From contig OY811978.1 in assembly GCA_963681505.1 (NCBI GenBank), positions 7,424,586-7,488,585 on the forward strand: a DNA stretch of 64,000 nucleotides, written 5' to 3'. Positions within the stretch are counted from its first letter, which is position 1; every line of letters starts with the position of its first letter. This DNA comes from Eunapius fragilis (Eukaryota; Porifera; Demospongiae; Spongillida; Spongillidae). Both the position numbers and the translations under genes were made by a program. This document shows, in pieces, positions 2,548 through 60,382 of the stretch. Under the pieces are notes generated by a model. It had not been told where the DNA came from. It searched no databases and saw nothing but the letters and a program-made list of their open reading frames with translations.

Positions 2548-2830
2548 CAAGTAAATAAAAAAATTTCTCTTTGAGAAATAGAGTGGGATGTAGGATTGGC
2601 ATTGGTGGTGTAAAAAACAACGAAACAAGACCAATTATGGATTGGTACCAGAGACGGTCCTCCATTCATTTAGCCATGAACCATAAATTTCAACTTGTTA
2701 AATGTAGGACCGTCTTGTTGTATTCTGGTACCAATCCATAATTGGTCTTGTTTCGTTGCTTTTTACACCACCAATGCCAATTCTACATCCCACTCTATTT
2801 TTCAAAGAGAAATTTTTTTATTTACTTGTT
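2548..2830 (-). repeat. 3' terminal foldback of the Helitron
   Basis: Arms 2548-2660 and 2706-2830 are inverted copies with a 45-bp loop. The outer part (CAAGTAAATAAA, then the TTCTC hairpin, then GGTGTAAAAA) is shared with foldbacks at 15449-16552, 20571-20800 and 26011-26222, while the inner part differs. Each arm carries a copy of the Helitron 3' end, so the terminus is duplicated in inverse. Confidence 0.85.
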
Positions 2831-3837
2831 TCCTTGCTTTTTTTTCTTAACATGCACAGGGATTCTGAGTAGATTAACACTTATGCATTTGCAAACATGT
2901 CGTCAGGGGGATGAAACTATAGTTCTCAATAAGTTAATAACGAGCGCGTGCGCATAAATATACGTAGTTTCTCTGTGAACGAGACATGCGTTCTAATTAA
3001 AAATCAATAATAATGTACATTGATTATATGGAGACAGCAGCGGCGAGGAAGATGAACCCCTGGCTGGCTGGCCATTATTGCAACATGACAGGAAGTTGTC
3101 AGAGAAGCTAGCTATAGCAAGCTATAGTTGAAGCATTGTCAACAGCTACAGGTGTTGATTTAACACCTGTAGCAAGCTGAGGCAGGCAATCCTCAGTGAC
3201 ATGTGGTTTAGCTGGTAATCATAATAGTGTATAATGTCAAATCCAATTGGGACAGACAATAACAGTTCTGACATGTCTGCTGTTATATAGCCAAGGGAAT
3301 AGGTCCCCCATGTAAATCTGTTTGATCAGAAATGCATGTATTATCCGCCCAAGGCGGGGGTGTCATGAGTCCCTACACTCAATCATTGTTGCCTACTTTT
3401 GGCCACTCAACCATATACATCGACAATGCATGCTTTGTGCTCATTAAAGTTTTAATTCTTTACCTCACAGAGGACACTGGTCATTACATTAGTATACTAA
3501 GAACAATTTTCTTCACTTGGTGCTATGCTACACACAAAATGCCTGACAGTTGCCTGAATCGTAATGCCAAAACAAAATGAGTCTTGAATGCCAAACAGTG
3601 CACATACACAGAATATAGCACACATGAATACATATATCATGGGCTGTATTGCAGCCTTGGTGTGCTTTGACATCACATTGCACTTTGACATAAGACATCA
3701 TTTCTTATTCAGCACATCATACATAGTGACCAGAAAGACAAGCCGGCAATGTGTATACCTCTGCATCAGTGACAATCATTGTTCACATTGTAGTGTAGTA
3801 GCATGATATATTGTTTTCAACTACATCCACCAACCCG
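2831..3837. other. Non-coding 3' part of the Helitron
   Basis: I see no convincing coding sequence between the terminal foldback and the OTU fragment. A perfect 11-bp stem hairpin with a 5-base loop lies at 3146-3172. Its function is unknown, and it is too far from the terminus to be the Helitron 3' hairpin. Confidence 0.5.
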
Positions 3838-4119
3838 TCACCTTTCTAGTTGAGATGTGACAACATCAAAATGATTATTATTCCTCCAAAATAGACACAT
3901 GGACCGCTGCCCAACATCATCTATCATGCTGTCATCTATGGTTTTTGGGAACACTGTATCCCATATATTGGCAGTGGGATTATAGGAATATATGTTACAT
4001 TGCACTAAGTGAGCAAGTGTTAACATTTCTGCTGTGCTTCCCCATGTCCCAGAGTACCACATTCGGGTCGTACTGACGTAAGTTTCAATATCAGCTGTTA
4101 TACCTGTGAAGGGGGATCC
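3838..4119 (-). pseudogene. OTU-like cysteine protease, C-terminal half (split by hAT)
   Basis: The minus-strand frame carries GTWGSTAEMLTLA and, near the end, NNHFDVV, which resemble the second half of OTU domains, where the His of the catalytic pair lies in an N-H-(Y/F)-D motif. The frame ends with a stop at 3838. Its upstream end runs into the hAT terminal repeat at 4120. The matching N-terminal half is at 7796-7985 and the reading phase agrees across the two copies of the target duplication. OTU domains are known in some animal Helitrons. The activity is inferred and the gene is interrupted. Confidence 0.8.
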
Positions 4120-4455
4120 AGGGGTCGACTTAACGGTTACCATAAATGACATTCATATTATTGATGACGTTTCGCAGTAATTAAATTCATTGTAAAACGT
4201 CATCCCGCAATTGCACCGCACGTTTAATGCGATCAGTAGCGCGACTGAGAACTTAAAGGTGGACTTAGTGCGAAATGGGACAATGGCTCCTGCGCGCGCG
4301 CTCGTTTAACATGTGATAGGAAGCGAGCGCGCACAATGTGTCTTTGTTTGATTCTGTGCAAAATAATGGGGCAATAGCCACCGCTGATCGATAGCAGCCG
4401 CTTAAAACGACATGCATGAGGGCTCCATTGTAAGCGAGCTATATAAAACAATGGG

Positions 4456-5817
4456 GTGTATGCGCTGCTCTCTCAATCCAGGGTTAGTACATATAAGCAA
4501 GCATATTACTTTGCACACTATTTTTGGTGTCTCGATGAGCCTGCCATGTGTGAACCTGCTCGCCAGTTTAGGGATGAATGGTTGACTGCCTTTCCATGGT
4601 TGTGTTTTGAAGAAGGCAAGATGTTTTTTATGATATGCACATCACAGGATGGAGCAACAGGCCAATTTGTTGATGGTAGCACCAGCTTTCATACACATTC
4701 ACTAACAAAACATGCTGAAAGGTACATGTACACAGGCAGTAGTGTCCCATATATCATGCCAATGTTATCTAAAAACTGTAGCAGCCAGCATAACTCCTGC
4801 ATGCACACTCTGAGTGGGCATCCTTCAAGAGCTGAACAGTCAGTGATGTCTCGATTGGCTGTGCTGTTTCGAAATGCTCATGCCATTGCCAAGGCCGGTA
4901 GGCCATTCACTGACATGGAGTGGATGTGTGCTCTGGATGAGAAGAAGGGTCTTGATGTTGGGGCATCATATAGGACTGATAAGAAGTGCTGCGAATTCAT
5001 TCACTATATTGCAGAAGAGCAGCGGGTGGGTTTGCAACAAAAGCTTCAGTCAAACAACTTCTTCTCTATCATGGTGGATGGCACCACTGACTCGTCTGTT
5101 AGTGATGCAGAAATTATCTATATAAGGTACACTAGTACTTTGCTTGCTCAAATTCTTTTACTGGCTTATATACATAGGCAAGCTGTGAAAGGAGTGGTTT
5201 CTGTCCACTTTCTTGCCTATGTGAATATCACTCGAGGTACAGCTGACCACATATTAAATGCCATAGTGCTGGCATTGGAGAAGGGTCTCCAGATGACAAA
5301 ACAGACCATCTTCACCAAGCTGGTTGGATTTGGTAGTGATGGTGCATCTGTAATGACTGGGTGCAAGAGTGGTGTCAGTACTCGTCTGAAGAGGGAACAA
5401 CCACTGTTGTTCACACTACACTGCATGGCACATCGATTGGAACTGGGGTTCAAGGGAATTATTGGAGCAAATAGTTTTATGTCCACCTTTACAGAGCTGC
5501 TATTTGCCATCTATAATTTCTACTATTCCAGCGCACTGAACAGAGAAAACCTCAAGTCATCATGTGCTGCGGCAGGTGTGAAGTTCCTAGCACCCAGCAG
5601 GGTTGGTGGTACTAGGTGGCTGCCTCACACCATGCTGGCACTTAAGAAGCTGTGGAACATATACCCAGCCCTATTGCAGCATTTTGAACAGGTTAGAACA
5701 TTAAGATGGCACTGCAAAGCTAGCAAGGTAGTTAGTTATAATCCCTTTTTTAGTTATCCATTGCAACAGGTGCAGGTGTATCTACAGATAGCCAGGCCAA
5801 AGCAAAGGGCTTTCTAA
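4456..5817 (+). pseudogene. hAT transposase, N-terminal and catalytic part
   Basis: The 453-codon frame has an N-terminal TTF-type zinc-finger-like region (WLTAFPWLCFEEGKMFFMI, then CTSQDGATGQF and a HxxSLTKHAE segment). It then matches the DUF4371 RNase H-like core with VDGTTDSSVSDAE (first catalytic Asp region), a GFGSDGASVMTG motif (second Asp) and CMAHRLELG. This arrangement is typical of ZNF862-like hAT proteins. The frame is lost near 5817, where the homologous sequence continues in another frame. The start is uncertain: an in-frame ATG exists, but the first 30 residues do not look conserved. Confidence 0.85.
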
Positions 5818-6460
5818 AAAAGCTCTCATCTAAACGAACCATCTTGCTTGGGTCATTTTTTACGGATGTTGTAGACACTCTGCACACTGTGTCATTGGCC
5901 ATACAATCTCCAGTTTATTCCCCTGGGTACATCATTAAAACGTTAAAGTCAACTCTGAATACGCTACAGGCACTAACCGAGAGGTGAATGCCAAGTTGCC
6001 AACTTCACTGTACATAATTCAAAGTCAATTCTCTATTGCATGCATGTAGACCTGGCCACTATTTAACATCAGCCCTCAAAGATGAGTCATCGTTTCTGGG
6101 GGTCCCTTTATCGGGGAAGTACGATGCTGTTCAGCTGAAGGCTGACATGAATTGCCTTGTGGATGGCCTCACAGCACAACTGGAGGTGCGGCTTGGGGAG
6201 AATGGCAGTGACAATGTCACAAGTGCAATGCACATTCTCTCCCTACACTCTTGGCCTCACCAGACTGAGGATGCAAGTATGTTTGCACTATTTCTATCAA
6301 AAGAATGTGCTGCTAAGCATTCTATTTATTAAGTACAATTTGGAAATCAAGATGTAGCCCTCCTGCAAAGGCACTTTGGACCCATTCTTGAGAAGTGTGG
6401 TGTGGATGCCAGTGTTGTACACACAGAATGGGATTTGCTCAAGGATGTAGTGTAGGTTCA
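5818..6460 (+). pseudogene. hAT transposase, middle fragments
   Basis: Sequence after 5817 still codes, in shifting frames, for transposase-like segments: a stretch around 5820-5985 (TILLGSFFTDVVDTLH), a 98-codon frame at 6036-6332 (SGKYDAVQLKADMNCLVDGL) and a short piece at 6340-6450 (HFGPILEKCGVDASVV). At least two frameshifts separate them. I treat them as one decayed coding region continuing to 7627. Confidence 0.7.
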
Positions 6461-6726
6461 GCTCACGTGTAATGGCTTAAGTATTGGACTGGTACATTCT
6501 AAAAAAACTGTAGGTACTCTCTACTCAGGTGTGTTAAGACTGACTACACTTAAAATTATTAAATGGCTGCCAAAGGAAGCGTTTATTCATAAATATTCAT
6601 ACACAGACGTTACCACTGATTAATAATGTCCAATACATTTTCGATTGATAACGCGTAATTAATATATAATGTTGTTTCTATGACAACAGTTACGCACGGT
6701 GAAATAATTGACTTAATGTTAGAATT

Positions 6727-7027
6727 GAAAACCCGGGTGATTAAAGAATAGTTTTTCGCATGTTTCTGCAGTTCTTCTACTTCTGGGATACCCATATTTA
6801 ATCATTATACTAGGCTTTTTGATCATTATTTCGAAACGCTTCGAGCGCTTGCAGACAAACATTAAAACTGCGAAAAATTAAGCACAAAATTCATCATTTT
6901 CGTTGTGCAACTTATGCAAACGATGTTAGATTTCGTTGTGCCCACCCACAATAGTTAGACCAGTATCAAATAAACAATATATAACTGTTTTTGTCCACAA
7001 ACAACAATTTTAAATCACCCGGGTTTT
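6727..7027. mobile_element. Probable MITE inside the hAT gene
   Basis: GAAAACCCGGGTGATT at 6727 is mirrored by AATCACCCGGGTTTTG at about 7010-7027. Sequence from about 6470 to 7260 has no transposase similarity and separates the middle and C-terminal parts. The short inverted ends suggest a small non-autonomous element of about 300 bp. I could not define a target duplication, and the surrounding non-coding stretch may be a former intron. Confidence 0.45.
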
Positions 7028-7297
7028 GCGAAAACGTAAAGAAACGCCCCCATATTTCGGAGCGCGATGCATTGAACTACTAAGGTTGCTATGACAACTA
7101 TCAATTTAATTAATTTGCGGGATCATTGAACAAAGATTTGGTATAAAGAGAATAGCTTCAAGAAGTACCCAAACAGAAAAGCGGCATGTTGTAATGTTTG
7201 AATTCGCCGAAAATTCAAATTCCAAATACAGTGTAGCCAGTCTTAACATACCTGAGTAAAGGCTAAAGTTCCACCTAAGGAGCCAGAGTGGGTAGAT

Positions 7298-7627
7298 GTG
7301 TTCAAGAATGCCCAAGATTCATGTCCAAATGTGCTCCAGCTGGTGGATCTGCTACTGCCTTTGCCTGCCAGCAGTGCAGACTGTGAACGAGGATTCAGCC
7401 TGACTAAAGTCATCAAGTCAGACTGGAGGAGCAGGCTAAGGGACACCATGGTCACTGATTTGATGACCATACAGCTGCACAGTCCTGAAATTGCTGACTT
7501 TGATCCCACACCATCCATTCTTAGGTGGAAAGGGAGCTGCAAACGCAGACTATCTCTGTGCAGCAATTCTAGCTCAGAATCAGATGACGAAATGGAGTCA
7601 GATGATGAAATGATTGATGCTTTTTAA
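7298..7627 (+). pseudogene. hAT transposase, C-terminal dimerisation domain
   Basis: The 109-codon frame contains LLLPLPASSADCERGFSL and then RLRDTMVTDLMTIQL, the hallmark of the hAT C-terminal dimerisation region (A-x-x-x-E-R-x-F-S type). It ends with an acidic tail (SESDDEMESDDEM) and a stop at 7627. Coding sequence of this domain begins slightly upstream, near 7262. It belongs with 4456-6460. Confidence 0.85.
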
Positions 7628-7795
7628 AAAAAATGAAGTTACATTTTATCTTTTGCAAGTGGTTGCATGTGCAGCTTTACTTCGTGGTTGATGACGCGTT
7701 GTTGTAACAACATGTTATGATAGCTGCAAAAACATGCTATGATAGGCGTACCACATAAATGAATGTCATTTATGGTAACCGTTAAGTTGACCCCT

Positions 7796-7985
7796 GGGGA
7801 TCCCACTAATAATGCACTGATAGACCGCATGTGAGCAACTATAGCTTTCCGTGCCCTTAAGTGATGGTTTTGTGACCCTGTCAGAATGTATGAAAAACAC
7901 CTGAACAAACAATTTCCATCACCTCTTATTGAAACTATAGTTTGCAGGTTAGGGCGATTTAATACAACAGTAGGGCCACCTTGTT
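7796..7985 (-). pseudogene. OTU-like cysteine protease, N-terminal half (split by hAT)
   Basis: Reading minus from about 7970, the frame gives GDGNCLFRCFSYILTG, matching the OTU catalytic motif D-G-x-C with the nucleophile Cys, followed by HHLRARKAIVAHM. The frame runs into the hAT end at 7796. The C-terminal half with the catalytic His is at 3838-4119. An in-frame stop at about 7987 separates this from the upstream conserved segment. The protein is presumably a domain of the Helitron polyprotein rather than a host gene. Confidence 0.85.
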
Positions 7986-7986
7986 G

Positions 7987-8280
7987 CTATTGTGTTGCAC
8001 GTTCAAATACTAATCCCAAAAGCCTGCATTTATCCCGCTGCCATGTTTCATTTGTCTGATGATACCTTAAGTTAGGCCATGTTGTAAGACGTTCTTGAGG
8101 TACAACTATTATGTCACTGGAAGACTCGTGCATAACGTTAGGCTTCAGAGTAATTACACCATGACCCTTTTTAGTGTCGTGCTCAAGAGGTATGATAGTA
8201 CCTTTGATCTTATCACCATGGATCACAGGTAAATGATGTTGCTTGGTTACATTTGTGGGCTGAACCAAGTCATCTAATTT
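7987..8280 (-). pseudogene. Helitron segment between helicase and OTU
   Basis: A 93-codon minus frame (VQPTNVTKQHHLPV, then IKGTIIPLEHDTKKGHG and LTTWPNLRYHQTNETWQRDK) lies between the helicase end and the OTU start. It is one base out of frame with the helicase stop near 8274. I recognise the style of this segment from Helitron polyproteins carrying OTU domains, but have no named domain for it. Confidence 0.55.
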
Positions 8281-9427
8281 AGTACATTCAGTTCTTTTCT
8301 AGATATGTTTTTAACAGAATGCTCAATGCAGGGAAGGTCAGGTTTAAATGTTTTTCTTAGTCTATTTAATTCATCAATGCACTCTTTGCTGACCTTGATA
8401 GATTTAGGGTCAAAGTTGCAAAGGTACAAGCCTGATAAAGATCGCACCCTTGAGAGAGCTACATATGCCATTCCTGTTGTGAACACATCTTGTGACAGAT
8501 CTACTATGGCACAATCAAGAGAGATGCCCTGTGACTTATGTATGGTTATGGCATATGCTAGGATCAAGGGAAACTGTTTTCTCAGCACATAAAACCGCTT
8601 CATGATCTGAAATTTACTTTTAACACGCTGTATTTTAACACGTGAGGTTGGGGAATGATCAAATAGCACCTCAATTGAGTCCTTACTGATAGCGCTTACA
8701 CAACCAAGCGCCCCATTCACCAATCCACGACCAGTGTCAATATTTCTGCGTAACATAACACGAGCCCCCACTGCTATGGTCAACTCTGCTTCTAATCCAG
8801 CAGTATTATTACAGTCATGGTTAACTTTTCTAGTGCAGCAGAAGCTTTCGTTGTCCATTTCACTCCAGCAGTTTCATCATATTCATCAATGCAAGCAATT
8901 TTTACTACCTGCGACCCAGCCCGATCTAGCATTGTACTGTTGAACTGGTCACATGCTTTTCGTGTGGCAAGCAGACACACTGGAAACTGCTGCCCAGATG
9001 CCTGAAGTTCCACAAACTTTCCAAATGGTTTGCAATTTATAACAGTTCTTTGTAGGCATGCAATGGTTTTCTCAGATAAACAATTCACCCTAACATCATT
9101 AAGCAGGTTAGCAAACTCTGAATCTTTTTTCTGACGTTCATTAATAGTCAATTCATCATAAGATACAGTTTCACGCCATATGTTTACAGAGGCCAAACAG
9201 CCAAGGCGTGCAGCTATGACCAAATTGCACACATTCTGGAACACATGTGACCCATTGACAGGAGGCAACTGTAGTATATCACCCACAAAGAGAACATTAG
9301 CCCCACCAAACCACTGGTCACCACCAAACAACTCTTCTAACCTCAAGTGTATGTATGCTAAATTGAGGCTCGAGAGCATTGATACCTCATCTATGATAAT
9401 CAACTTCACGTGTTTAAAAACCAGCAC
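8274..9427 (-). pseudogene. Helitron PIF1-type helicase, C-terminal part
   Basis: Two overlapping minus frames (8792-9427 and 8274-8858) carry helicase motif II (IIIDEVSML), motif III (GDILQLPPV), and later ITIHKSQGISLD and VALSRVRSLSGL, which are SF1B PIF1-family motifs V and VI. A frameshift near 8830 separates them and another near 9420 separates this part from the Walker A portion. The enzyme would unwind DNA during rolling-circle transposition. In this copy it is inactive as written. Confidence 0.88.
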
Positions 9428-11804
9428 GCATTATTTTAACAGAGTCTTTTGGCAAGGGCCAGTAAGTGGATGTTTTGGATTCATGTTCAACAGGCAGCTG
9501 AAATAGCCTGTTTACAGTAACACCATTGATGTTGAATGCAGCTAAACCTGTTGGTGCCGCAATAGCACATGTCATTGCAGTATCTGGAGTGTCTTTCCAT
9601 ATGTCAGCAATTTGAGCCCGGATGGTATGTATTAAGAATGATTTACCAGTACCGCCCACACCCGAAAGAAACATTTGAAGTGGATGGAGTTGCCTGCATG
9701 AGCACACACCATCTTCATGCCTTCTTAAGTGATTCATGAGATCTACTACATTGCTGAAAACTCGAAATTGATCACTATTTAGCTTATCAATGCAGTTTTG
9801 TAAAGTGGCTTCTATTGGTACTTGTTCATTTCTGAGAAATACATCTTCTAGTGCATCTTTTGCTTCACCCTTCACAAACAAATCTTCTACTGGGAGATCG
9901 CAAGGCTCTTGCTCCTTATCCCTAGCCTCATTTATCTCTTTTACCTTGGATTGTGCCTGCAACATAGCCTGTAGTTTGTCATGGTGAGCAAACAGGTCTT
10001 TGTTGCAATGGATGTGACGGTTGAATGCTGCCTCAGCATTCTCACCCTCCCCTATAAGAGCACTTTCATTTCTGAAAGGTTCAAACAATAGCATGAGAGA
10101 ATAAAAATATTCTTCTCTCTGGTTTTCGTTGTTTGGATCAAAGAGCTTGTGGTTAGGAAGACGAGGGCTGGATACTTTGGTGTACATACGTTCACCACTC
10201 TGACTAGTACCACCGTATTCATACCACTTGATGAAATCATAAAGACATACAGATTCTAGCTGTATTGGCCTCTGAGGGTAATGAGTGTCCAGCATGCTTG
10301 CTTGTAAGATGTCAGTAGAATTGGGGTCACTCTCCTGCATCTTAAGCAGTACGTTGTGATCTTTCAACCTGCGCTTACGCTTATGTGGCAGTGAAACATC
10401 AACCCATTTCACCTGTTCTGATTTCTCGTATAAGTTATCACCTAATAATAGATCACTGGCTTCATACAGGCCACACTCCCTTGACCTGAAACTACGTACC
10501 CCAAAACTCCACAGTTTACTATATAGACTAGCATTGGAGTTAACTTGTTGCCACACATCTTGCATGTTACCCTTTTCTGCTTTAGTGACGTATCCTGTCA
10601 CATAGTGAGCTAAAGCAAGTGAAGACTCAGATATGAACTGGATGTCCATATTGGCCTTCCACATAAGAAGCAACAGCGGATTGAAGTCATTTACACATGA
10701 TTCTTCAGCAGCTCTTGGAAGATTGTAAATCTTCTTTCTAGATTTTAAACATTCTTCCACAGGGTTAAGCACAGCACACTCACATGGATCTCTAGGAAAA
10801 CCAAATCTGCACTTTGTAATGTAAGCATTTTTGACTTTTGTTCTGCGCTTGCAATAATTGGTACACCTGTGCAACTGGTATTTGGTTACAAGCCTATAGA
10901 GCTCAGGATTTTGATCTGCATTTGGGATTCTACATTTGATTCTTTCCTGAATCCACTTAATGACATCGTTGGGACTACTTTTACCAATGACTGGAGCATC
11001 TGCAATCCACAGCACAATATGATAATGTGGAGCTCCACGTGCTTGGTATTCTTCTTTATAGAAATAATGTTCTACCATTCCAAGCACTGCGCCCTTCAAG
11101 ACTAAACTATTAAAAAGCGCATGAAAATTAGCAGAGAATTTCCTCGACACAGATATAGGATCCTCTGTGCAGAGTCGAGAAATAGAATAACTCTCTGGGA
11201 CATCATTGACCTTCCTTAGGTAGTGAGATATGTGCTCATTATCATACTCTGCACATGAGAGTGTTACAAAAAGTGTAGGAGGTCCAAATTCCCTTAACAT
11301 GCATTTCAATTCTGAACTGCGCAGAAACCAGTATTGCTTTGTGCCACGCACAGATTGAAATATAGTAGAAAGATTTCTTTCAACCTCCTCATCTGACTTG
11401 GACACCTTTGAGAGGAAGGCACCAACAGGGATTGCACTTTTTGTACTTTTGAGAAGGTTGTAAATGCCTGCAGAAAGCTGCTTTATTTCATGCTGCCACA
11501 AGAGGAAGAATTTATATTGAGCATCTTTACGAAAACGACAATCTTTGTTAAGCAGCCTGGACTTTACATATTCAGCGAGGGAGAGTTTCAAAGCCCGTGC
11601 ATGGAACTCGCCAAATCGACCACTTGGAAACAAAGTTGGAAAGCGTGCTACATCAAGATGTACCTGCCTATTATCTATTGGATGCTCCTTCACCCTTTGC
11701 ATCATGTACTGCTCGATGTCCAGAGCAGTAGATAACTTCTGATCTAATGATCTAATAGTGTAAGACTGGAAAGCTGCTACATCATCAGATGTGAAGCTTT
11801 TCAA
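9414..11804 (-). pseudogene. Helitron Rep nuclease and helicase N-terminal part
   Basis: The 796-codon frame is the longest in the window's left half. The Helitron-like N region holds GAPHYHIVLWI with the HUH metal-binding pair (HYH), and further on HYVTGYVTKAEKG with tyrosines of the kind used to nick DNA. Near the C-terminus, FLSGVGGTGKSFLIHTI is the PIF1 Walker A motif. HUH Rep proteins nick and join DNA ends, and the fused helicase drives strand displacement. The frame overlaps its neighbours by 14-20 bases in other phases, indicating frameshifts rather than separate genes. Confidence 0.9.
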
Positions 11805-12795
11805 TCATACAGCTAGACGTGTTGTCGAAAACCTCAACAACCTTACGCCCCATCTCACTTAAACTAAAATCATTAATTGAACTGTACAGCCAGTTTCTAC
11901 TACTGAGTTTTTGTATTGCTGCTTTGATGCGATCGACATCAACTAAAGTTTGCCAAACTACTTTATCTTTAGTTGGGACACCATTAACAATAACATACAG
12001 CTGAGGATCAGGCAATGATGCATTTCCCTCTACCCCAGTAACTGTCTCAAATGTATTATAAAGAGGAAGAGGCAAATAGAACATAATGCCTTTGCATGCC
12101 TGTAATGAATTATGAGCAGGTTGGTTACCACTGTATGTGCCTAACCTTACTAAGGTTTGAAATGCTTTTGCCCTCTGAATTAGTTGCTTACTCAATGCAT
12201 CAAGCCCTTTCAACTCATCTGGTACTGGTTCAGTTATCAAACCATTTAGAATACACCGGGGAGGCATTGTGTTTTTATTTAGGTACTGTCGGCAATAACT
12301 ACACACATAGAGGTCATTGGTAACGACACCTATGTGATTCTTTAGTTGTAACCATATGGCAGTTTGATACTTTGTATCGTGCCTAAGATTTACACAGGAC
12401 ACTTGCTTCTGCTGGTGTAAGCGTTCACAGCTCAAGCAAGGGTATACTGGGTCATCTTTGTATTGTGACTCAAGATCTGCTATTAGCTCTGCATAAGTAA
12501 CTCTAAGATAACTCTCAATTGGACCAAGACCAGGTGTGGAGTTGTCGTTGCAAAAAGCAGCACTATTAGTGCCATCTTTATTGAACAGGTTTGCATTTTG
12601 CATAAAATCCATCAATCTCTCCACATCACCAGCACCAAGTGCCTCGTCAATAGTAGCAATGATTTTGTGGCTTTTCAGCACAGAATAAAGCAAACATAAG
12701 AACGGACGCAGGACTGGATAGTGTGCGGAACCAGACCAAATCACCCTTATTACAGATGGACAAGTTGGATATTTGCATGAAATTGGATGTCCCAA
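11785..12795 (-). pseudogene. Helitron region with DUF6570-like Cys motifs
   Basis: The 336-codon frame has paired cysteines (PCLSCERLHQQKQVSC, then LYVCSYCRQYLNKNTMPPRC) followed by LITEPVPDELKGLDALSKQL and RAKAFQTLVRLGTYSG. This is the order seen upstream of Rep in many Helitron polyproteins (DUF6570, by recall). It is followed by the Rep part after a frameshift near 11800. An in-frame TGA at 12808-12810 lies just upstream of the shown start, so the true protein extends further. Confidence 0.75.
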
Positions 12796-12807
12796 GAGGT
12801 CAGAACA

Positions 12808-13435
12808 TCATGTGCCCTTTTCCTCATCACAAATGTCTGCACATAGGTCACGATCAATGTGGCAACATTTATCAAGGTCACCTAGTGCTGCTCTAATGTC
12901 TGGTACAGAGTAACTTTGTTTTTATAACAATATCTACCTCTTCATCACTCAAGAGTCTACACTGACCTGTGCAAAGCCACTTTTTGGGACAGTCACTATC
13001 ACTACTGTCATTTTTGGGAAGGTCACTACTTTCACCCTTACTTTTACCCTCCTTTACTTCTTTAGCCACAACACACCAGCCATTAGTGTCAACAGGGATT
13101 GTTAACATATGTTTATCATGTGTGTATGATGTCTCATAGAAGTATGGCTCTGAGCTCTTCATATGAATTCCATTTCTATCAGAAATGTCACTGGGATTTA
13201 ATTTTAGTGCATTTATTGAGCGTACAGATTTTAGGAACATTGCTGCTTTTTCTCTCCGAATATTAAGCGCTAAGCCAAGCAATTTATTTGCACTTATTTT
13301 GCACACTGCTGCATGCTCTGATCTAGTGCATACTTTGTCAGCCAACCATTCATGCGCTTCCTTAAATTCTTCAATTACCTTTTCTTGTAAGTTTTTATTG
13401 CTATTTAGTGCTTTTTCAAGCAACATGCAATACAC
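12808..13435 (-). pseudogene. Helitron polyprotein segment upstream of the Cys-rich region
   Basis: The 180-codon frame (12893-13435) includes LGLALNIRREKAAMFLKSVR and PKKWLCTGQCRLLSDEE. Near 12900 the frame shifts, and the next phase continues (DIRAALGDLDKCCHIDRDLC) until a TGA at 12808-12810. I recognise no catalytic domain. Position and codon continuity place it in the Helitron protein between the basic repeats and the Cys-rich region. Confidence 0.65.
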
Positions 13436-13585
13436 CTGCCTTTGATAATCTCTTGGTTCAAAGAGACAAAACCTGAGTAAAAATTAAATTAAACATTTAT
13501 ATTTCACCTAAATTTAAATACAACAGAATGCTCAGTAACTTATTTCAACAGTACTTGCTATAGTATACAGTATTACATGCATGAC

Positions 13586-14446
13586 TCACCGATTAATCTT
13601 AGACTTCTTATTGTTCAGCATTTGGGAGGCAGTGTTTAGACTAGACCATGCTGAATATTTAGCCCTTTTAACTGCCTTTCTTGCTTCAGCATGAACAAGG
13701 TAGCGTTTGCGCTCCACCAATCCGTTTGGATTCAGGGTATTTTTGGTACCGTGCTCTTTCAGCGGCTCGCTTTGTTTCAGGGTCTTCGTCGTATTTTGCC
13801 CTTTTCTTTGCTCGCTTCGATTCAGGGTCTTTTTCATAGCGCGCCCGTTCAGCGTCTCGCTTTGTTTCAGGGTCTGCGTCGTATTTTGCCCTTTTCTTTG
13901 CTCGCTTCGATTCAGGGTCTTTTTCATAGCGCGCCCGTTCAGCGTCTCGCTTCGATTCAGGGTCTGCGTCGTATTTTGCCCTTTTCTTTGCTCGCTTGGT
14001 TTCAGGGTCTTTTTCATAGCGCGCCCGTTCAGCGTCTCGCTTCGATTCAGGGTCTTTTTCGTAGCGCGCCCGTTCAGCGTCTCGCTTTGTTTCAGGGTCT
14101 GCGTCGTATTTTGCCCTTTTCTTTGCTCGCTTGGTTTCAGGGGCTTTTTCATAGCGCGCCCGTTCAGCGTCTCACTTTGGTTCAGGGTCTGCGTCGTATT
14201 TTGCCCTTTTCTTTGCTCGCTTCGCTTCAGGGTCGTTTTTGTAGCGCGCCCGTTCAGCGTCTCGTTTCGATTCGGGGTCTCTTCTATAATGTTGTCGTTC
14301 GTCGGCACGCTTCTGCTCAGAGTTCGACTGGTAACGTTCTCTGGCTTTTTCTCTGGTTGCCATCGAACGACGTTCTTGCAAAATCTTGTCTTGTATGCAT
14401 CTCTTTGAGCTTTTCTTTGCTTTTCAGTTTGTTGACTGGAAGGCAT
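13586..14446 (-). pseudogene. Helitron N-terminal basic repeat region
   Basis: From about 13736 to 14300 the DNA repeats every 90 bp, coding on the minus strand for alternating 15-residue units of the types KRDAERARYEKDPES and KRAKKRAKYDADPET. The upstream 69-codon frame (14172-14381) stops at a TGA (14172-14174) where the sister repeats have CGA. A different minus frame is open for 286 codons from an ATG at 14446 but encodes an unrelated-looking repeat, so it is probably a by-product of the repeat periodicity. Such highly charged repeats are common before the Rep in Helitron ORFs. Confidence 0.7.
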
Positions 14447-15066
14447 GTTTCAACTATCGCCAAAAAGCTTAACACAAATAATGAACACACGTGCAAGGTC
14501 ACGTGCTTGATTCAAATAATTTTTGACCTCCGGCACATTGATCATAGTTCGAATAGCAATTTGAATGGACAAAAGCCCGACAACATATAGGTCCAAACAT
14601 TTAGTTGCGATCCTTATTCGACATTGTATACTTCATTTTCTATAGATTGGCAAAAATACACCCACGCACACTCTTTTTTCATTTATATCGAAACTGATAT
14701 AAACTATATAGTTTCAATATTCACAATGGATGAAACGTCGCATCGAGCGCTACATTTTGGTGCAAATATCATTGTTTTCCGCTTTTCCTAACTTGAGTTA
14801 TGTTTGACGAAAGGAAGAAGGAGAAGGAGAAGGAGGAGGAGAAGAAGGAGAAAAAAAATGGCGGATCCGAGAGATCGACTATACCGTCTGGAGACAACGG
14901 CAGGGTTGCGAACATCGCGCGTTGGACTATAGATGCAGCGTGTTTTGGGTAGATTTTATAGCGACTGGCAAGTGGCTACGAAGCGTATTTTCTGTTTTCT
15001 AACGCTCGATCGAAAACCACGCCTACGGAGCCAATCCTACATAGGACCTACTATCGTAGGTCCTGA
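14447..15066 (-). promoter_or_regulatory. Helitron 5' end: terminal hairpin and triplet tract
   Basis: On the minus strand the element starts TC and goes straight into a hairpin (15044-15063, stem GGACCTAC). Next come about 180 bp, then a pyrimidine triplet tract (GAAG/GGA on the plus strand at about 14808-14858), then the first coding ATG near 14446. The same layout recurs at 15893-16394, 16553-16988, 24976-25262 and 62177-62595. It must hold the promoter, but I see no motif I would call with confidence. Confidence 0.6.
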
Positions 15067-15448
15067 TATAAAGTTATAAAAATGATTCACATTGAAATCG
15101 CTACATCTCATGCTATTGACTTCCTATTTTCAACACTTCATACTACATCATTTCTCTCTGGTAAAATAAATTTTGGGCTCTTGAATTAGCTTCGTGCCAG
15201 TGTTGCAACGTCCGATACCCCTTGGGGTTCAAACTGGCCATATCTTTCGGCAGGAAATCTCAATTAACTTCAAATTCGGTTTATATGCAGAGGGGTCCTG
15301 TACCTATCGATTTGTCCTGTTCGTTAAATTTTTACTTGATCCGTTACGAAGATACAACTGTGCAAAGTAATTGCACATTTCTCGTTCATTTCGCGCCACT
15401 AGCCTACTACAACCTGGTTCCCGATACTCCGAGCACATGAATATACAA

Positions 15449-16988
15449 CAAGTAAATAAAAACATTCTCTCTGAGAAAGTTGGTGGGATATAGGTTTTTG
15501 CTGGCAAATAGTATACTGGTGTAAAAAGCAAGGAAACAAGTTTTATCAGAAGGGAAAATGTAATAGTCCTATATTTAGCACACTTCGACTAAGGCACAAG
15601 TACATAAAAACATTCTCTCTGAGAAAGTTGGTGGGATATAGGTTTTGCAGGCAAATAGTATACTGGTGTAAAAAGTAAGGAAACAAGTTTTATCAGAAGG
15701 GAAAATGTAATAGTCCTATATTTAGCACAGAAACAGCATATGCCTTAGTCGAAGTGTGCTAAATATAGGACTATTACATTTTCCCTTCTGATAAAACTTG
15801 TTTCCTTGCTTATTACAAAAGTATACTATTTGCCTGCAAAACCTATATCCCACCAACTTTCTCAGAGAGAATGTTTATATGTACTTGTTACCTTAATTTT
15901 TTTAACACCCAAATCACTGTTGCATCGCAGGTGTCCCCCTTTCATTTAACCGATTTAATTCAATCCAGATGTATTGTGAAAATTTTCTAGGTACTTTTGC
16001 TTAATTAGAATTGATAAGACCGTATATAGGCTTTTAGACTTTTGTGTATCAAAGCGAGTCCTCCAGCAAATTCTAAAGCTATTGGTGCAATTTTCATTGC
16101 TTAAAAGTGTTCCTGTCCCGAGTTATGAGTTCTCAAGAAGAAGAAGAAGCAGACGACCCGCCCATTATTTTTGGAAGGGGAACGAGGACAGCAGTATTTT
16201 TTTTTCTCGACAACCACGCGGTTCTACGACGTGAAACAAAAACGAAACTACTCAGTTTTGACTTCTAGATCGATTGCCGCAACAAGTTAGACGATCCGAT
16301 TGTCGGGAGCGAAGCTACGGTAGGGTCGCGGGATTTTAATTAAATTCATAGTCGGGGTCAAAACCTATATGGAAGTCTCTAGCGAGACTTCCGATATGCT
16401 GTTTCTGTGCTAAATATAGGACTATTACATTTTCCCTTCTGATAAAACTTGTTTCCTTGCTTTTTACACCAGTATACTATTTGCCTGCAAAAACCTATAT
16501 CCCACCAACTTTCTCAGAGAGAATGCTTTTATTTACTTGTTTCCTTAATTTTTTTAAAACGCATATAGGTAATTTTGCTTAATAAGTAAGACCGTATGTA
16601 GGCTTTTAGGCTTTTGTGTATCAAAGCCTAAAAGCGAGTCCTCCAGCAAATTCTAAAGCTATTGGTGCAATTTTCATTGCTTAAAAGTGTTCCTGTCCCG
16701 AGTTATGAGTTCTCAAGAAGAAGAAGAAGAGGAAGAAGCAGAAGCAGACGACCCGCCCATTATTTTTGGAAGGGGAACGAGGACAGCAGTATTTTTCGTT
16801 CTCGACAACCACGCGGTTCTACGACGTGAAACAAAAGCAAAACTACTCAGTTTTGACTTCTAGATCGATTGCCGCAAGAAGTTAGACTATCCGATCGTCG
16901 GGAGCGAAGCAACGGTAGGGTCGCGGGATTTTAATTAATTCATAGTCGGGGTCAAAACCTATATGGAAGTCTCTAGCGAGACTTCCGA
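15449..16988 (-). mobile_element. Composite non-autonomous Helitron derivative
   Basis: Flanks ending 15448 (A) and starting 16989 (T) join exactly as in copy A (2048/2049) and copy C (22607/22608). The insertion is therefore 1,540 bp with no target duplication. It contains two 3' arm modules (L2 15449-15596, L1 15597-15740), two inverted arm modules (R2 from 15741, R1 from 16395) and two 5' modules, each with a GAA tract and terminal hairpin (ending 16394 and 16988). Every internal junction is A/T or A/C, the bases of Helitron ends. Confidence 0.88.
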
Positions 16989-18218
16989 TAACCTCCCGTG
17001 CCCATGCCACTACATGTACAACTGAAGTACCACCGTTAATTTACGTTCTCACAAGAAGTTCCACCGTTCTCACAAACGTCAGTGGTTCTCTTCTATAACG
17101 AACAAGATTCGTTAAGCGATCAAAATGCGTGGGATTCAGCTACCATCACCATACAAAACACGGTACGTACTACCAGTACCGATACGCGCGCACAACAATA
17201 TGTGTCCCTGTCGATTCGGTCATACTCTTTAGTACGGGTGCCACTCATTGCGTGGCCATTTATAGGCTCACAACCTATAACAGTACGTCAGAGCCATGAG
17301 ATATAGTGCACGGTGTATCAGCTAGGCTATGGGAGAGGCGTGGTCGAGTTAAAGACACATGCAGCGCAGCTAGGTTGGAACACATGTAACCCTTCCTTAT
17401 TGTCGGGATTTGCGTTCTGCTGGCACATATATTTTAAACGCCCACCGTTTTTCATTTCATCTGCATGGCTGGCACACACACACCCATGAACCAACACACA
17501 CACACGTCTCACGTCACACTTATACACACTCTTTCCACTATTCTTTCCCCTTGCTGTACACCCTGTAAATTGTTATGTGCTACATGGATTCACTCATAAG
17601 CTTTGTCTATTTGAACTTTTTTTGGTTACAGTGCTTTCACTGGCTTACTATCCAACACTCTTTCTCAACTATTTATATTCTGACTGATGTGTTTTTCACA
17701 TGTGTAACTGGATTGTGTGTTTTATACACAGTGGTATAGGAGCATGGGGTCAAAGGCCCCAACAATTTTTTCAGAGGAAGGCCCCCCTCCCAACCCCTCC
17801 CCCCATTGGTTGTATGTACTGGGTTAATGTGTTGTATGTACTGGACTATTTGTTCCTGTCTCACAGTACCTGCCACATCATGACGTACCATGCCTCATGT
17901 CCCATATTCCATTACATGCATCCATTTACACACTCACACACTCATACAGACACAATACTCACAACTATCCCATGCCAATCACTATAAACGCTGAAGCTAT
18001 GAGTGTGTACCATTGAGAGGTTTAAAAAGACTTAGGACTTACTATTTATTACCTTCCTTTGTTCCAGGGCCCTGATCTTTATCTTTAGGGATAAAGCAGG
18101 AATAATATTCCTGCCGGGCTTATATACAAAAGTAGGTTTACAGAGTGGTAGATCTACATGGAATATCACAAAAGATAAATAGCACAGATTCCTAGAAGGG
18201 GCCCATGTATAATGCTAT

Positions 18219-21388: not shown

Positions 21389-23020
21389 ATGTATAGCATT
21401 ATACATGGGCCCCTTCTAGGTATCTGTGCTATTTATCTTTTGTGATATTCCATGTAGATCTACCACTCTGTAAACCTACTTTTGTATATAAGCCCGGCAG
21501 GAATGTTATTCCTGCTTTATCCCTAAAGATAAAGATCAGAGCTCTGGAAATTTTCTATAACAAAGGAAGGTAATAAATAATATGTCCTAAGTCTTTTTAA
21601 ACCTCTCAATGGTACACACTCATAGCTTCAGCGTTTATAGTGATTGGCATGGGATAGTTGTGAGTGTTGTGTCTGTATGAGTGTGTGAGTGTGTAAATGG
21701 ATGCATGTAATGGAATATGGGACATGAGGCATGGTACGTCATGATGTGGCAGGTACTGTGAGACAGGAACAAATAGTCCAGTACATACAACACATTAACC
21801 CAGTACATACAACCAATGGGGGAGGGGTTGGGAGGGGGGCCTTCTTCTGAAAAAATTGTTGGGGCCTTTGCCCCCATGGCCCCCATGCTCCTATACCACT
21901 GTGTATAAAACACACAATCCAGTTACACACGTGAAAAACACATCAGTCAGAATATAAATAGTTGAGAAAGAGTGTTGGATAGTAAGCCAGTGAAAGCACT
22001 GTAACCAAAAAAAGTTCAAATAGACAAAGCTTATGAGTGAATCCATGTAGCACATAACAATTTACAGGGTGTACAGCAAGGGGAAAGAATAGTGGAAAGA
22101 GTGTGTATAAGTGTGACGTGAGACGTGTGTGTGTGTTGGTTCATGGGTGTGTGTGTGCCAGCCATGGAGATGAAATGAAAAACGGTGGTCGTTTAAAATA
22201 TATGTGCCAGCAGAACGCAAATCCCGACAATAAGGAAGGGTTACATGTGTTCTAGCCTAGCTGCGCTGCATGTGTCTTTAACTCGACCACGCCTCTCCCA
22301 TAGCCTAGCTGATACACCGTGCACTATATCTCATGGCTCTGACGTACTGTTATAGGTTGTGAGCCTATAAATGGCCACGCAAAGAGTGGCACCCAAACTA
22401 AAGAGTATGACCGAATCGACAGGGACACATTGTTGTGCGCGCGTATCGGTACTGGTAGTACGTACCGTGTTTTGTATGGTGATGGTAGCTGAATCCCACG
22501 CATTTTGATCGCTTAACGAATCTTGTTCGTTATAGAAGAGAACCACTGACGTTTGTGAGAACGTAAATTAACGGTGGTACTTCAGTTGGCATGGGCACGG
22601 GAGGTTATTGTATATTCATTGGTTGTAGTAGGTTAATGGCGCGAAATGAACAAGAAATGTGCAATTACTTTGCACAGCTGTATCTCCATAACGGATCAAG
22701 TAAAAATTAACAACAGGACAAATCGATAGGTACAGGACCCCTCTGCATATAAACCGAATTTGAAGTTAATTGAGATTTCCTGCCGAAAGATATGGCCAGT
22801 TTGAACCCAAAGGGGTATCGGACGTTGCAACACTGGCACGAAGCTAATTCAAGAGCCCAAAATTTATTTTACCAGAGAGAAATGATGTAGTATGAAGTGC
22901 TGAAAATAGGAAGTCAATAGCATTTACGGTTCGGGAGATGTAGCGATTTCAAAGTGAATCATTTTTATAACTTTATATTTATATAGCGATACGACATTTT
23001 CTCAGACCCTGTCCCAATTA
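20830..23020 (+). repeat. Long repeat family R, copy C (carries empty insertion sites)
   Basis: This copy is collinear with copy A from about position 490 onward. It ends at the same AT-rich sequence (about 23000-23030). It is uninterrupted at the positions corresponding to both Helitron insertions (22977/22978 and 22607/22608) and so serves as the empty-site reference. It includes a GT tract at about 21308-21390. Confidence 0.85.
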
Positions 23021-23071
23021 TATATATATATATATGCCTCTTGGTCACTAAGTAATGCTTTTGTATTTCAG

Positions 23072-24975: not shown

Positions 24976-26222
24976 TCGGAACCTACGCGAGTAGGTTCCA
25001 TATAGGAATCCTGCAGTATCATGAATGTCATTATAAAAACGTCGGGTCACTTCGCTCTTAGTGGCAATCGAGCGATATCAAAAAGGAGAACATCTCTGCG
25101 CTGTATCTGTGTCGTAAGACGGTGTACTTCCAGAGAACAAAAATACTCGTCCCCATCGTCCGTACCCAGTCCCACCTAAAATTTCTCCTCCGTCGGCTTC
25201 TTCTTATTCTTATTCTTCCTTCGGGATAGTATAACTCACGACAGGAACGTTTGTAAAGCACGCCAAGTGTACCAATCGCTTCAGGACGCGTCCGCAGGTT
25301 ATCTTCGGGTGTCTATTAGACGCCTAACCGATCGGGCAATTAAATAAAGCGAGTAGTTCCTTATTTGGTGTTGATCTGCAAATAGCACATTACATCAGCT
25401 ATCAGAATGGTCATGACGCGCCGGTATAAATTAACCAGCGTTGTCAAATTCGATGGTTTTAATTTTACCATGCAATCTCAAGAACAATTCAAGCATCTGA
25501 ATGTGGAAAGATCCGTGCAGATGCTACCAGATCTGCCAAACGTGTGCATGTCAAGCGCGAACCGAAAGGACCAACAAAACGACCACCTAAAGGTACGTTA
25601 CAGCATCGATAAATGTTGGATCCATAAATTATGAGCATGCATGGTATATCGCTAAAATGGAAGGAATAGTGTAGTTACAGCGGTAGATACTGCGTCTCTC
25701 TCCGCTTTATAGTATAGTATGCACTGCCAAAGTTGCTTACGACAATTTGGTAATGTATTGCGGTGCATGGTTTATCTGATAATAGCGTGAGATCAGTTTA
25801 CGTATTATATGGCTTCGCGTTTGCTAACCTTTATTACCCTTTGGTCCTCAATGGAGGTAGGCTGGGGACTAGTATAATGGTACACCTCATCAAAATTGCA
25901 GATTCAAAATTAAATCTGTCATGATCACACAATTTGACGTTTTTGCTACCTCGGTCTATATGTTTCAAGAACTAAATACAATACCAAATCCACCAGAAAA
26001 ATTTAGGAAAAAATTCTCTATACGAGAAGGTTGGTGGTATATAGGAATCAAAGGTGATGGTGGTGTAAAAAGCAAGGGAACAAGGTTTCTGATTGAAAAG
26101 GAAAAATGAAATAGACCTATATTAGCAACAGCTAATATAGGTCTATTTCATTTTTCACCACCATCACCTTTGATTCCTATATACCACCAACCTTCTCGTA
26201 TAGAGAATGTTTTTATTACTTG
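24976..26222 (+). mobile_element. Non-autonomous Helitron, 1.25 kb
   Basis: The plus strand begins TC directly after an A (24975), with a terminal hairpin (stem GGAACCTAC, 24978-24999). A CTT/ATT triplet tract follows at about 25196-25222. The element ends with a foldback (about 26011-26222) whose last part has TTCTC/GAGAA and then CTTG, followed by T. These are the same ends as the 12.5 kb element. The foldback right arm has lost an internal piece of about 35 bp. It holds no Rep or helicase. Confidence 0.8.
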
Positions 26223-59532: not shown

Positions 59533-60382
59533 AGGGTTGCCGAAGGCCGGCCGACCTTTCAGGCCGACCTTTCAGGCCGGACCTTCTGGCCTGACCTTCA
59601 GGCCGGAACCCGGCCTGAAAGGCCACTTATTAAAGATGTAATTAGATTATTAAGGAATTATCGCAAGAATATATACAATCACTGTGAATTAATCAGTCAC
59701 ACGATATGCCGCATATACATCAGTAAGTTGCGCAGATCAACCAGACCGCCGAGACCGGTCCAGACATAACTAATCTAACTGTTCAGCACCATGCAAGCGG
59801 ATCTATACATAGATAGTACTATCTATGATCTATAAGAGAAGTAGCATTCACTTTTCGTGTTTCGGGAACTGAAAGCCAAGCATCAAACTCATCCTTAACT
59901 TCTCTACGTATATAGGTCGTTCGAAAAAGGGCTTGTGGCAGTGGTTGCACCAAGCTTTGTCAGCAAACCCTTCATATCCTCTCGTTACATGACATTTGTA
60001 CAATTTGAAATGTGCCCACACCACGTACGGAGGGTTGTTTGCGTCGTTGCGGGTACCTGATAAGCTCATCAGTGTTATAAACCCAGCGGTCTGGGTTTAT
60101 AGGAGACACAAGCTTATGGGATATATCTGCTACAGAGGAGCCACCAGTCTCTCCACAATCACCTGAAGCTGTATTCATAGCGCTAGTGACGGCGCTAACG
60201 AATGAATAAACGTCACGCGCGTCACGTGTACTTGTCTCATATATTGTAAATTAATATTTAATAATTTTAACATGGAATTTAATAACTGTATCTTTCGGGT
60301 CGACCTTTCAGGCCACGGGCCGGAGCCCTGGCCTGACCTTCAGGTCACAGGCCGGACCCTGGCCTGACTTTCGGCAACCCTG
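59532..60382 (-). mobile_element. hAT-type insertion with BED-like exon in the gag start
   Basis: Ends are CAGGGTTGCCGAA (59532) and TTTCGGCAACCCTG (60382), flanked by a perfect 8-bp duplication CTTCTCCA (59524-59531 and 60383-60390). Subterminal regions repeat AGGCCGGACC-type sequence. On the minus strand, 59848-60069 reads PPYVVWAHFKLYK and AWCNHCHKPFF, which looks like a BED zinc finger, the usual N-terminal DNA-binding domain of hAT transposases. The rest of the transposase is missing, so this is a deletion derivative. Confidence 0.88.

Follow-up and report, generated by a model that had tools for sequence, protein, structure and literature searches.

The window analysed here, a stretch of 64,000 nucleotides from the sponge Eunapius fragilis (contig OY811978.1 of assembly GCA_963681505.1, positions 7,424,586 to 7,488,585 of the forward strand), carries a Helitron-type element on its minus strand (element 1) together with two further elements of this kind (Table 1; all positions are those of the window). 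The initial annotation had derived the boundaries of element 1 from copy C, an uninterrupted copy of the repeat that hosts the element. We joined the flanks of element 1 (2547+15067) and aligned them with the reverse complement of copy C. The junction at 22977/22978 was exact: 77 bases (53+24) matched across it without a difference, and there was 1 mismatch in 91 aligned columns. A second empty site for element 1 lies within the host inverted repeat, in its left arm (reverse complement of about 2388-2472). Its junction is identical, and a 3-base gap and 2 mismatches lie away from it. Both empty sites break at one and the same place, and they show that element 1 was inserted without duplication of its target, which is a feature of the Helitron superfamily. 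The ends are ambiguous by 1 base: positions 2547 and 15066 both hold an A, so that the T of TC can be assigned to either end. The target is AT under either assignment.

Table 1. Positions of element 1, its parts and related features in the window
Feature	Position	Strand	Basis or remark
Helitron-type element, family 1, including nested insert (element 1)	2548..15066	-	5' TC at 15066, 3' CTTG at 2548, A and T as flanks; empty sites and other copies
Terminal palindrome of element 1, 281 nt	2548..2828	-	outer arm ends at last element base; inner arm starts CAAG at 2828
Short 3' hairpin TTTCTC AAA GAGAAA	2564..2578	-	read from sequence
3' inverted end repeat GCCAATCCTACAT, 40 nt before 3' end	2588..2600	-	complement of 5' repeat
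Nested hAT-like insertion, not Helitron	4120..7795	+	absent from L069; duplication GGGGATCC at 4112-4119 and 7796-7803; open reading frame (ORF) 4447-5817
PIF1 helicase pieces, mutually out of frame	8274..9430	-	PF05970, PF21530
Rep and start of PIF1 helicase	9414..11804	-	PF14214 2.7e-25, PF05970, motifs
DUF6570 piece of Rep-helicase	11785..12807	-	PF20209 6.2e-11
N-terminal piece of Rep-helicase frame (aa 1-195 of L069 frame)	12893..13483	-	comparison with L069
Repeat-rich ORF upstream of Rep frame, 45-bp units	13586..14449	-	ORF listing; separate ORF precedes long frame in L069 too
5' inverted end repeat ATGTAGGATTGGC, nt 25-37	15030..15042	-	0/5000 shuffles as long
5' hairpin AGGACCTAC GATA GTAGGTCCT, nt 3-24 of element 1	15043..15064	-	z -3; 3/200 shuffles fold as well
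Second Helitron-type element, family 2, TC...CTTG, internally duplicated (element 2)	15449..16988	-	same host-repeat arm as element 1; own empty site
Empty site (copy C) for element 1	22977..22978		joined-flank match
Third Helitron-type element, family 3, TC...CTTG (element 3)	24976..26222	+	palindrome 215 nt here, inner arm shortened

We searched the genome (219 Mb, 24 contigs) with each end of element 1. The best 40 of 308 candidates for the 5' end and the best 40 of 785 for the 3' end were scored, and 30 loci (L numbers) were fetched and inspected for each end, both sets including the window's own copy. TC was preceded by A in 30/30 of the fetched 5' ends. All 30 fetched 3' ends terminated with CTTG, and T was the next base in 28 of them, the exceptions being L050 (C) and L064 (A). 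The scored copies kept to the same limits: 40/40 matches to the 3' end stopped at the base matching 2548, and 39/40 matches to the 5' end began at the base matching 15066, with 1 beginning at the next base. Some loci had common flanks (L024, L025, L028 and L029 one flank, L026 and L027 another, and the 3' loci L041 and L042 a third), and therefore we count about 26 (5') and 29 (3') independent insertions. These results confirm the boundaries given by the initial annotation, which had placed element 1 between A and T, starting with TC and ending with CTTG on the minus strand. The copies on contig 9 with common flanks (L024, L025, L028, L029; L026, L027) look like segmental duplications, some of them inverted, and not like separate insertions. 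Two complete family-1 5' ends, L021 and L022 (C1:18056561 and C1:18056821), point the same way and are separated by 260 bp. Judged by eye, the second has a flank that resembles the element's own interior, and one may sit inside the other.

Element 1 has three features that the initial annotation does not mention, namely a hairpin at the 5' end, inverted repeats at both ends and a terminal palindrome of 281 nt. The 5' hairpin has a 9-bp stem and a 4-nt loop, and elements 2 and 3 have 5' hairpins of the same form. Near its 3' end, element 1 has first the complement of the 5' repeat, then the short hairpin and then ATTTACTTG. All three families of the window start with A/TC (here and below the slash marks a junction), and each has a 5' hairpin of 9 bp and an inverted end repeat that is specific to it. 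The end repeats are 13, 12 and 11 nt long in families 1, 2 and 3, respectively, and are located at nt 25 on the 5' side and 39-40 nt before the last base on the 3' side. Repeats of this length were reached in 0, 0 and 3 of 5000 shuffles each, where the 3' side of family 2 was taken from an internal copy of the tail, and matches across families were not longer than 7 nt. Since the repeats are family-specific and matched between the ends of each element, the 5' and 3' ends change together.

A structural scan (A/TC, 8-11-bp stem, 3-6-nt loop) of both strands of the window gave five sites, namely three element starts, one internal duplicate in element 2 and one other. The start of element 3 was reached twice, by the complement of its 3' repeat and by the scan for A/TC and a hairpin, which did not use the repeat. 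The fifth site, at 59828 on the minus strand, has A/TC and an 8-bp stem and looks unlike the other starts. A further family, whose intact frames comprise about 1,995 codons, has 5' ends that carry the repeat ATATAGGATTTG, which predicts CAAATCCTATAT near the 3' end. We detected CAAATCCTATAT at a palindromic 3' end in L064, but no shared interior ties L064 to this family, and the same ATATAGGATTTG repeat is present in another 5' type, L032; the prediction is only partly borne out. The host of elements 1 and 2 is a large inverted repeat centred near 2487, with segments at 1374-2547, 15067-15448 and 16989-17700 and a single-arm copy at 21931-23032. Both elements lie in its right arm, and for each of them the left arm provides an empty site.

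In most copies examined the tail is a palindrome of about 290 nt with arms of ~130 bp. Its length was 281-293 nt in family 1 (252 in L050), 290-291 nt in family 2 and 258-280 nt in family 3 (215 in the window copy). The arms of element 1 in the window are 97% alike across 105 columns and 90% alike across 128 columns, and the tail of L041, folded as a single strand, gave z = -36. With queries that contained both arms, matches on both strands were obtained for 40/40 scored copies of family 1 and for 40/40 of family 2; the 40 scored copies of family 3 looked more mixed. The motif AAAAAGCAAGGAAACAAG (window 2612-2629 and copies; L041:1501-1800) was seen by eye directly ahead of the inner arm and a second time inside the arms. 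The core CCTAYAT of the end repeat, also by eye, recurs at the centre of the palindrome, as though the tail had grown from a smaller palindromic one. A different type of tail, with GTCAATCCTATAT before the 3' hairpin, was found in L048 (1-202) and L060, near family-1 elements; in L060 it forms a 295-nt palindrome with 88% arm identity.

The palindromic tail might be explained by an ordinary Helitron1 whose 3' end was covered by chance by an unrelated palindromic miniature inverted-repeat transposable element (MITE). Palindromic repeats with CAAG and CTTG ends do occur elsewhere in the window, and the 3' copies were retrieved with a query containing the palindrome. We nevertheless consider this explanation highly improbable. 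The outer end of the palindrome is the terminus in 30/30 inspected 3' ends, and for 17 of the 40 listed 3' ends a partner among the 40 listed 5' ends lies not more than 20 kb away on the same strand (spacing 2,960-12,519 bp). In all three families the outer arm contains the complement of the family's own 5' repeat, and the two other such palindromes of the window that we examined are tails of TC...CTTG elements. A MITE at the element end was rejected because the inspected copies terminate at the outer end of the palindrome, which bears the repeat of the family.

We aligned 44 tails, of which 11 belong to subgroup A and 18 to subgroup B (both family 1), 6 to group C (family 2) and 9 to group D (family 3). 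Three rows (L082, L086 and L089) were dropped because their orientation or end was unmatched, and L050 and the window copy of family 3 were left out of the arm-consensus and mismatch counts and of the junction-context alignment. Within the first 112 nt, the consensus of the inner arm did not differ from that of the outer arm in any column (0 in each of groups A, B, C and D). Among families 1, 2 and 3 we counted 22-40 consensus changes of stem pairs that were two-sided and complementary, 0 that were two-sided and non-complementary, and 0-1 that were one-sided; between A and B there were 4 two-sided changes and 0 one-sided. With gaps left out, the arms of one copy diverged on average by 1.3-2.9%. 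The same arm diverged on average by 1.9-3.5% between copies of a group, by 5.7% between A and B, and by 22-35% among families 1, 2 and 3. Arms that had not been matched since the families split would differ by approximately the distance between families or more. The observed difference is far less, therefore the arms have been matched since the split.

The matching might also mean that each family formed the palindrome anew, through snap-back copying or the joining of two tails, instead of inheriting it and keeping it matched. This would agree with the near-perfect arms of most copies and with the fact that the inner arm opens as a copy of the element's own last bases. In most rows, however, the inner junction has a common context, AAGGAAA/CAAG in families 1 and 2 and AGGAAA/CAAG in family 3, which argues for one origin of the palindrome and not for repeated formation. 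Arm length and the mid-arm motif are likewise similar across the families, as expected from one origin. Further, A and B differ at 6 consensus positions (4 by a base change, 2 as gap columns), and 6/6 of these differences occur in both arms, while the inner junction is unchanged. We therefore find independent re-making quite unlikely.

We also compared deviations within the groups. Mismatches between the arms were private to one copy in 31/39, 20/25, 11/11 and 30/32 cases (A, B, C and D, respectively). Two-sided complementary deviations numbered 9, 9, 3 and 2. In a control with slid versions, A, C and D exceeded all slides (0 each), while in B the slides at -1, -2 and -3 reached 8, 12 and 8; we put these values down to a 3-base deletion present in both arms of four copies. 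In the shuffle control (300 shuffles) the maxima were 7, 5, 2 and 2, so that group D only ties its best shuffle.

Gene conversion between inverted repeats is a general phenomenon, and ordinary chromosomal conversion, unrelated to transposition, could have matched the arms. It predicts the two-sided changes that were seen. If conversion were ongoing after insertion, the arms within a copy should be much closer to each other than copies are, and the difference between 1.3-2.9% and 1.9-3.5% is modest. As a general account of the matching we judge it fairly unlikely. Conversion in the source copies is nevertheless a live rival to self-correction during movement.

A fetched copy on contig 9, L069, is 9,434 bp long and has a single open frame of 1,976 codons. 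This frame comprises DUF6570, Helitron_like_N (Rep), PIF1 and OTU protease, the OTU match being just above the cut-off, and it was recognised by PF14214, PF05970 and the motifs HYH, YVTGY and GVGGTGKS. The same pieces are present in the window copy, with the frame broken; the HUH motif GAPHYH lies at 11036-11019, the Y2 motif YVTGYVTK at 10604-10581 and the PIF1 motif GVGGTGKS at 9662-9639. The window copy is 96% identical to L069 across the main coding stretch (6,335 columns). The L069 frame thus joins a two-tyrosine HUH Rep to a PIF1-type helicase, which is a feature of the Helitron superfamily.

The initial annotation had described a complete autonomous-type Helitron of 12.5 kb, and here our results differ. 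The Rep-helicase frame of the window copy is split among frames, and its OTU region is cut by the nested insert, which we call hAT-like because of its 8-bp duplication and inverted ends. Without the insert the element is about 8.8 kb long, and judged by its broken frames the copy looks dead. The protein of the insert matched no family above the cut-off (only zf-C17orf113, E 0.084, below its cut-off) and had no match among solved structures. Upstream of the Rep frame, the tandem 45-bp units at 13686-14449 contain repeats that are legible in more than one frame. In the whole genome, 31 of 91 Helitron_like_N places lie within open frames of 1,976-2,096 codons, many of them with identical scores, which suggests recent amplification. 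We also searched viral contigs for relatives of a 473-aa Rep piece, and none was confirmed.

The initial annotation had further read the CTTG end as a variant of the canonical CTRR end. The CTTG end was correct, but element 1 is more than a canonical Helitron with such a variant. The termini combine features of Helitron1 and Helitron2 and depart from each type in a tested feature. The TC start and the A/T target are those of Helitron1. The end is CTTG and not CTRR (30/30 family-1 ends), and a 5' hairpin and terminal inverted repeats, which Helitron1 lacks, are present. Like Helitron2, the three families have a hairpin at each end and asymmetric terminal inverted repeats (ATIRs). In Helitron2 the 5' ATIR is placed 0-2 bp from the end, within the hairpin, whereas here the hairpin occupies nt 3-24 and the repeat starts at nt 25. 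Because of these mixed features, we file the element under the Helitron superfamily and under no named subgroup.

If the element were simply a Helitron2 or Helentron whose termini vary in the usual way, the hairpins at both ends, the inverted end repeats and the OTU domain would be accounted for. We consider this assignment doubtful. The target is A/T, and neither TT, as in Helentrons, nor TTTT followed by T or C; the 5' repeat stands after the 5' hairpin and not inside it. A Pfam scan (E 0.01) of the 1,976-codon L069 frame listed OTU and no C-terminal AP endonuclease of the Helentron kind. In Rep motif 2, RGAPHYH has A at the position where Thomas and co-workers reported S for Helentrons and L for Helitrons (signature printed in PMC4067079). 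The same genome contains at least one Helitron-type Rep with RGLPHAH, L001.

Several published systems are similar in part. Helitron2 (Bao and Jurka 2013, PMC3627910) shares hairpins at both ends, ATIRs and a 3' repeat upstream of the 3' hairpin, and compensatory changes of terminal features were reported there between two related elements. Its 5' repeat is part of the 5' hairpin and its targets lie between TTTT and T or C, in contrast to the repeat after the hairpin, the A/T target and the long palindromic tail described here. Canonical Helitron1/Helraiser (PMC4778049) shares the TC start, the A/T target, a 3' hairpin near the end, and Rep and helicase in one protein; it differs from the elements described here in their CTTG in place of CTRR, 5' hairpin, inverted end repeats, long palindrome, OTU, DUF6570 and RGAPHYH. 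FoHeli1/2 of Fusarium (PMC5148889) start with TCAG; each terminus has a hairpin, and the 3' member of the ATIRs stands tens of bp inside the element. Unlike our elements, they end with ATTTT, insert at TNAT/T or TNAT/A and have the repeat inside the hairpin, and a palindrome of ~290 nt is not described in the available part of that paper. The nearest published likeness to the tail that we found is in two Chaetomium Helitron subgroups of the same paper, which have imperfect palindromes overlapping the ATIRs. The Phytophthora proto-Helentron (PMC4067079) is a comparable mixed state, with an A/T target and a Helentron-like Rep; Helentrons have OTU proteins, and in HINEs the end repeats are themselves palindromic. 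In contrast to the elements studied here, the proto-Helentron ends are TT...CTAG, Helentrons have the endonuclease and a TT target, and the palindromes described in the available text are short. Our searches of the open-licence literature, some of them aimed at hairpins, palindromes or long inverted repeats, gave no description of a ~290-nt palindromic Helitron tail; subscription papers and Repbase were outside this scope, and a prior description is possible.

Taking the sequence evidence together, we consider it probable that element 1 and its relatives are rolling-circle transposons of the Helitron superfamily, forming a lineage with a hybrid terminus and a palindromic tail that is matched against itself. 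At the 5' end, TC is followed by the 9-bp hairpin (4-nt loop) and the repeat of 11-13 nt. At the 3' end the complement of the repeat, the short hairpin and ACTTG all lie in one arm of the ~290-nt palindrome, and the other arm is an inverted copy of the tail. Rep (HUH, two tyrosines) may nick at the A/TC end, and the PIF1 helicase may peel one strand off. The matched 5' and 3' repeats and the hairpin of the tail would mark where to stop, and the strand would be joined to an A/T site with no duplication of the target. The displaced strand could fold into a hairpin of ~130 bp, in which differences between the arms would be repaired against each other. New copies would thus be born with matching arms, which would then decay separately. 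Helraiser cannot do without its 5' end, and read-through rises when it loses the hairpin that serves as terminator near the 3' end (PMC4778049). For Helitron2, Bao and Jurka proposed that the two end repeats pair when replication finishes (PMC3627910). The present elements possess both features and, in addition, a long hairpin that would form in a displaced strand.

Several observations count against this interpretation or limit it. The scored copies were ranked with two-arm queries, so that copies free of the palindrome would be missed, and the fetched copies of families 2 and 3 were chosen among high-scoring rows. In the pairing of 5' and 3' ends, 23/40 listed 5' ends had no listed 3' partner, and the tails of these were unseen. 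Arm identity with gaps included is lower and uneven, with means of 0.917, 0.978, 0.990 and 0.941 (A, B, C and D) and a minimum of 0.680 (L050). The stem of 128 pairs was drawn from one aligned sequence, L041, and its consensus pairs are complementary throughout except for 1/114 in group C. Chromosomal gene conversion in the source element would yield identical patterns. Within groups, one-sided deviations exceed two-sided ones (44 vs 11, 55 vs 9, 8 vs 3 and 45 vs 2); this excess, together with the private mismatches, fits arms that were alike at insertion and decayed separately afterwards. When A and B were pooled, only 39/63 mismatches were private and 18 recurred in two copies, some perhaps being alignment noise in A-runs. 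This result lowers our confidence both in the interpretation and in its stronger form given below.

The stronger form of the proposal, which we put forward as a tentative possibility, is that the ~290-nt palindromic tail, with its two inverted 3' ends, is obligate in this lineage and is proof-read against itself in the single-stranded intermediate at each move. Tail and 5' repeat would then change together and found new families with end codes of their own.

Recognition of the 3' end of Helitrons is only loosely defined (PMC4778049). Families in which every change of the 5' repeat has its counterpart in the 3' repeat, and in which the arms of the hairpin are matched, provide a natural record of which parts of the ends must agree. 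They make two questions testable, namely whether pairing of the repeats ends replication and whether repair of the intermediate takes place in hairpin form.

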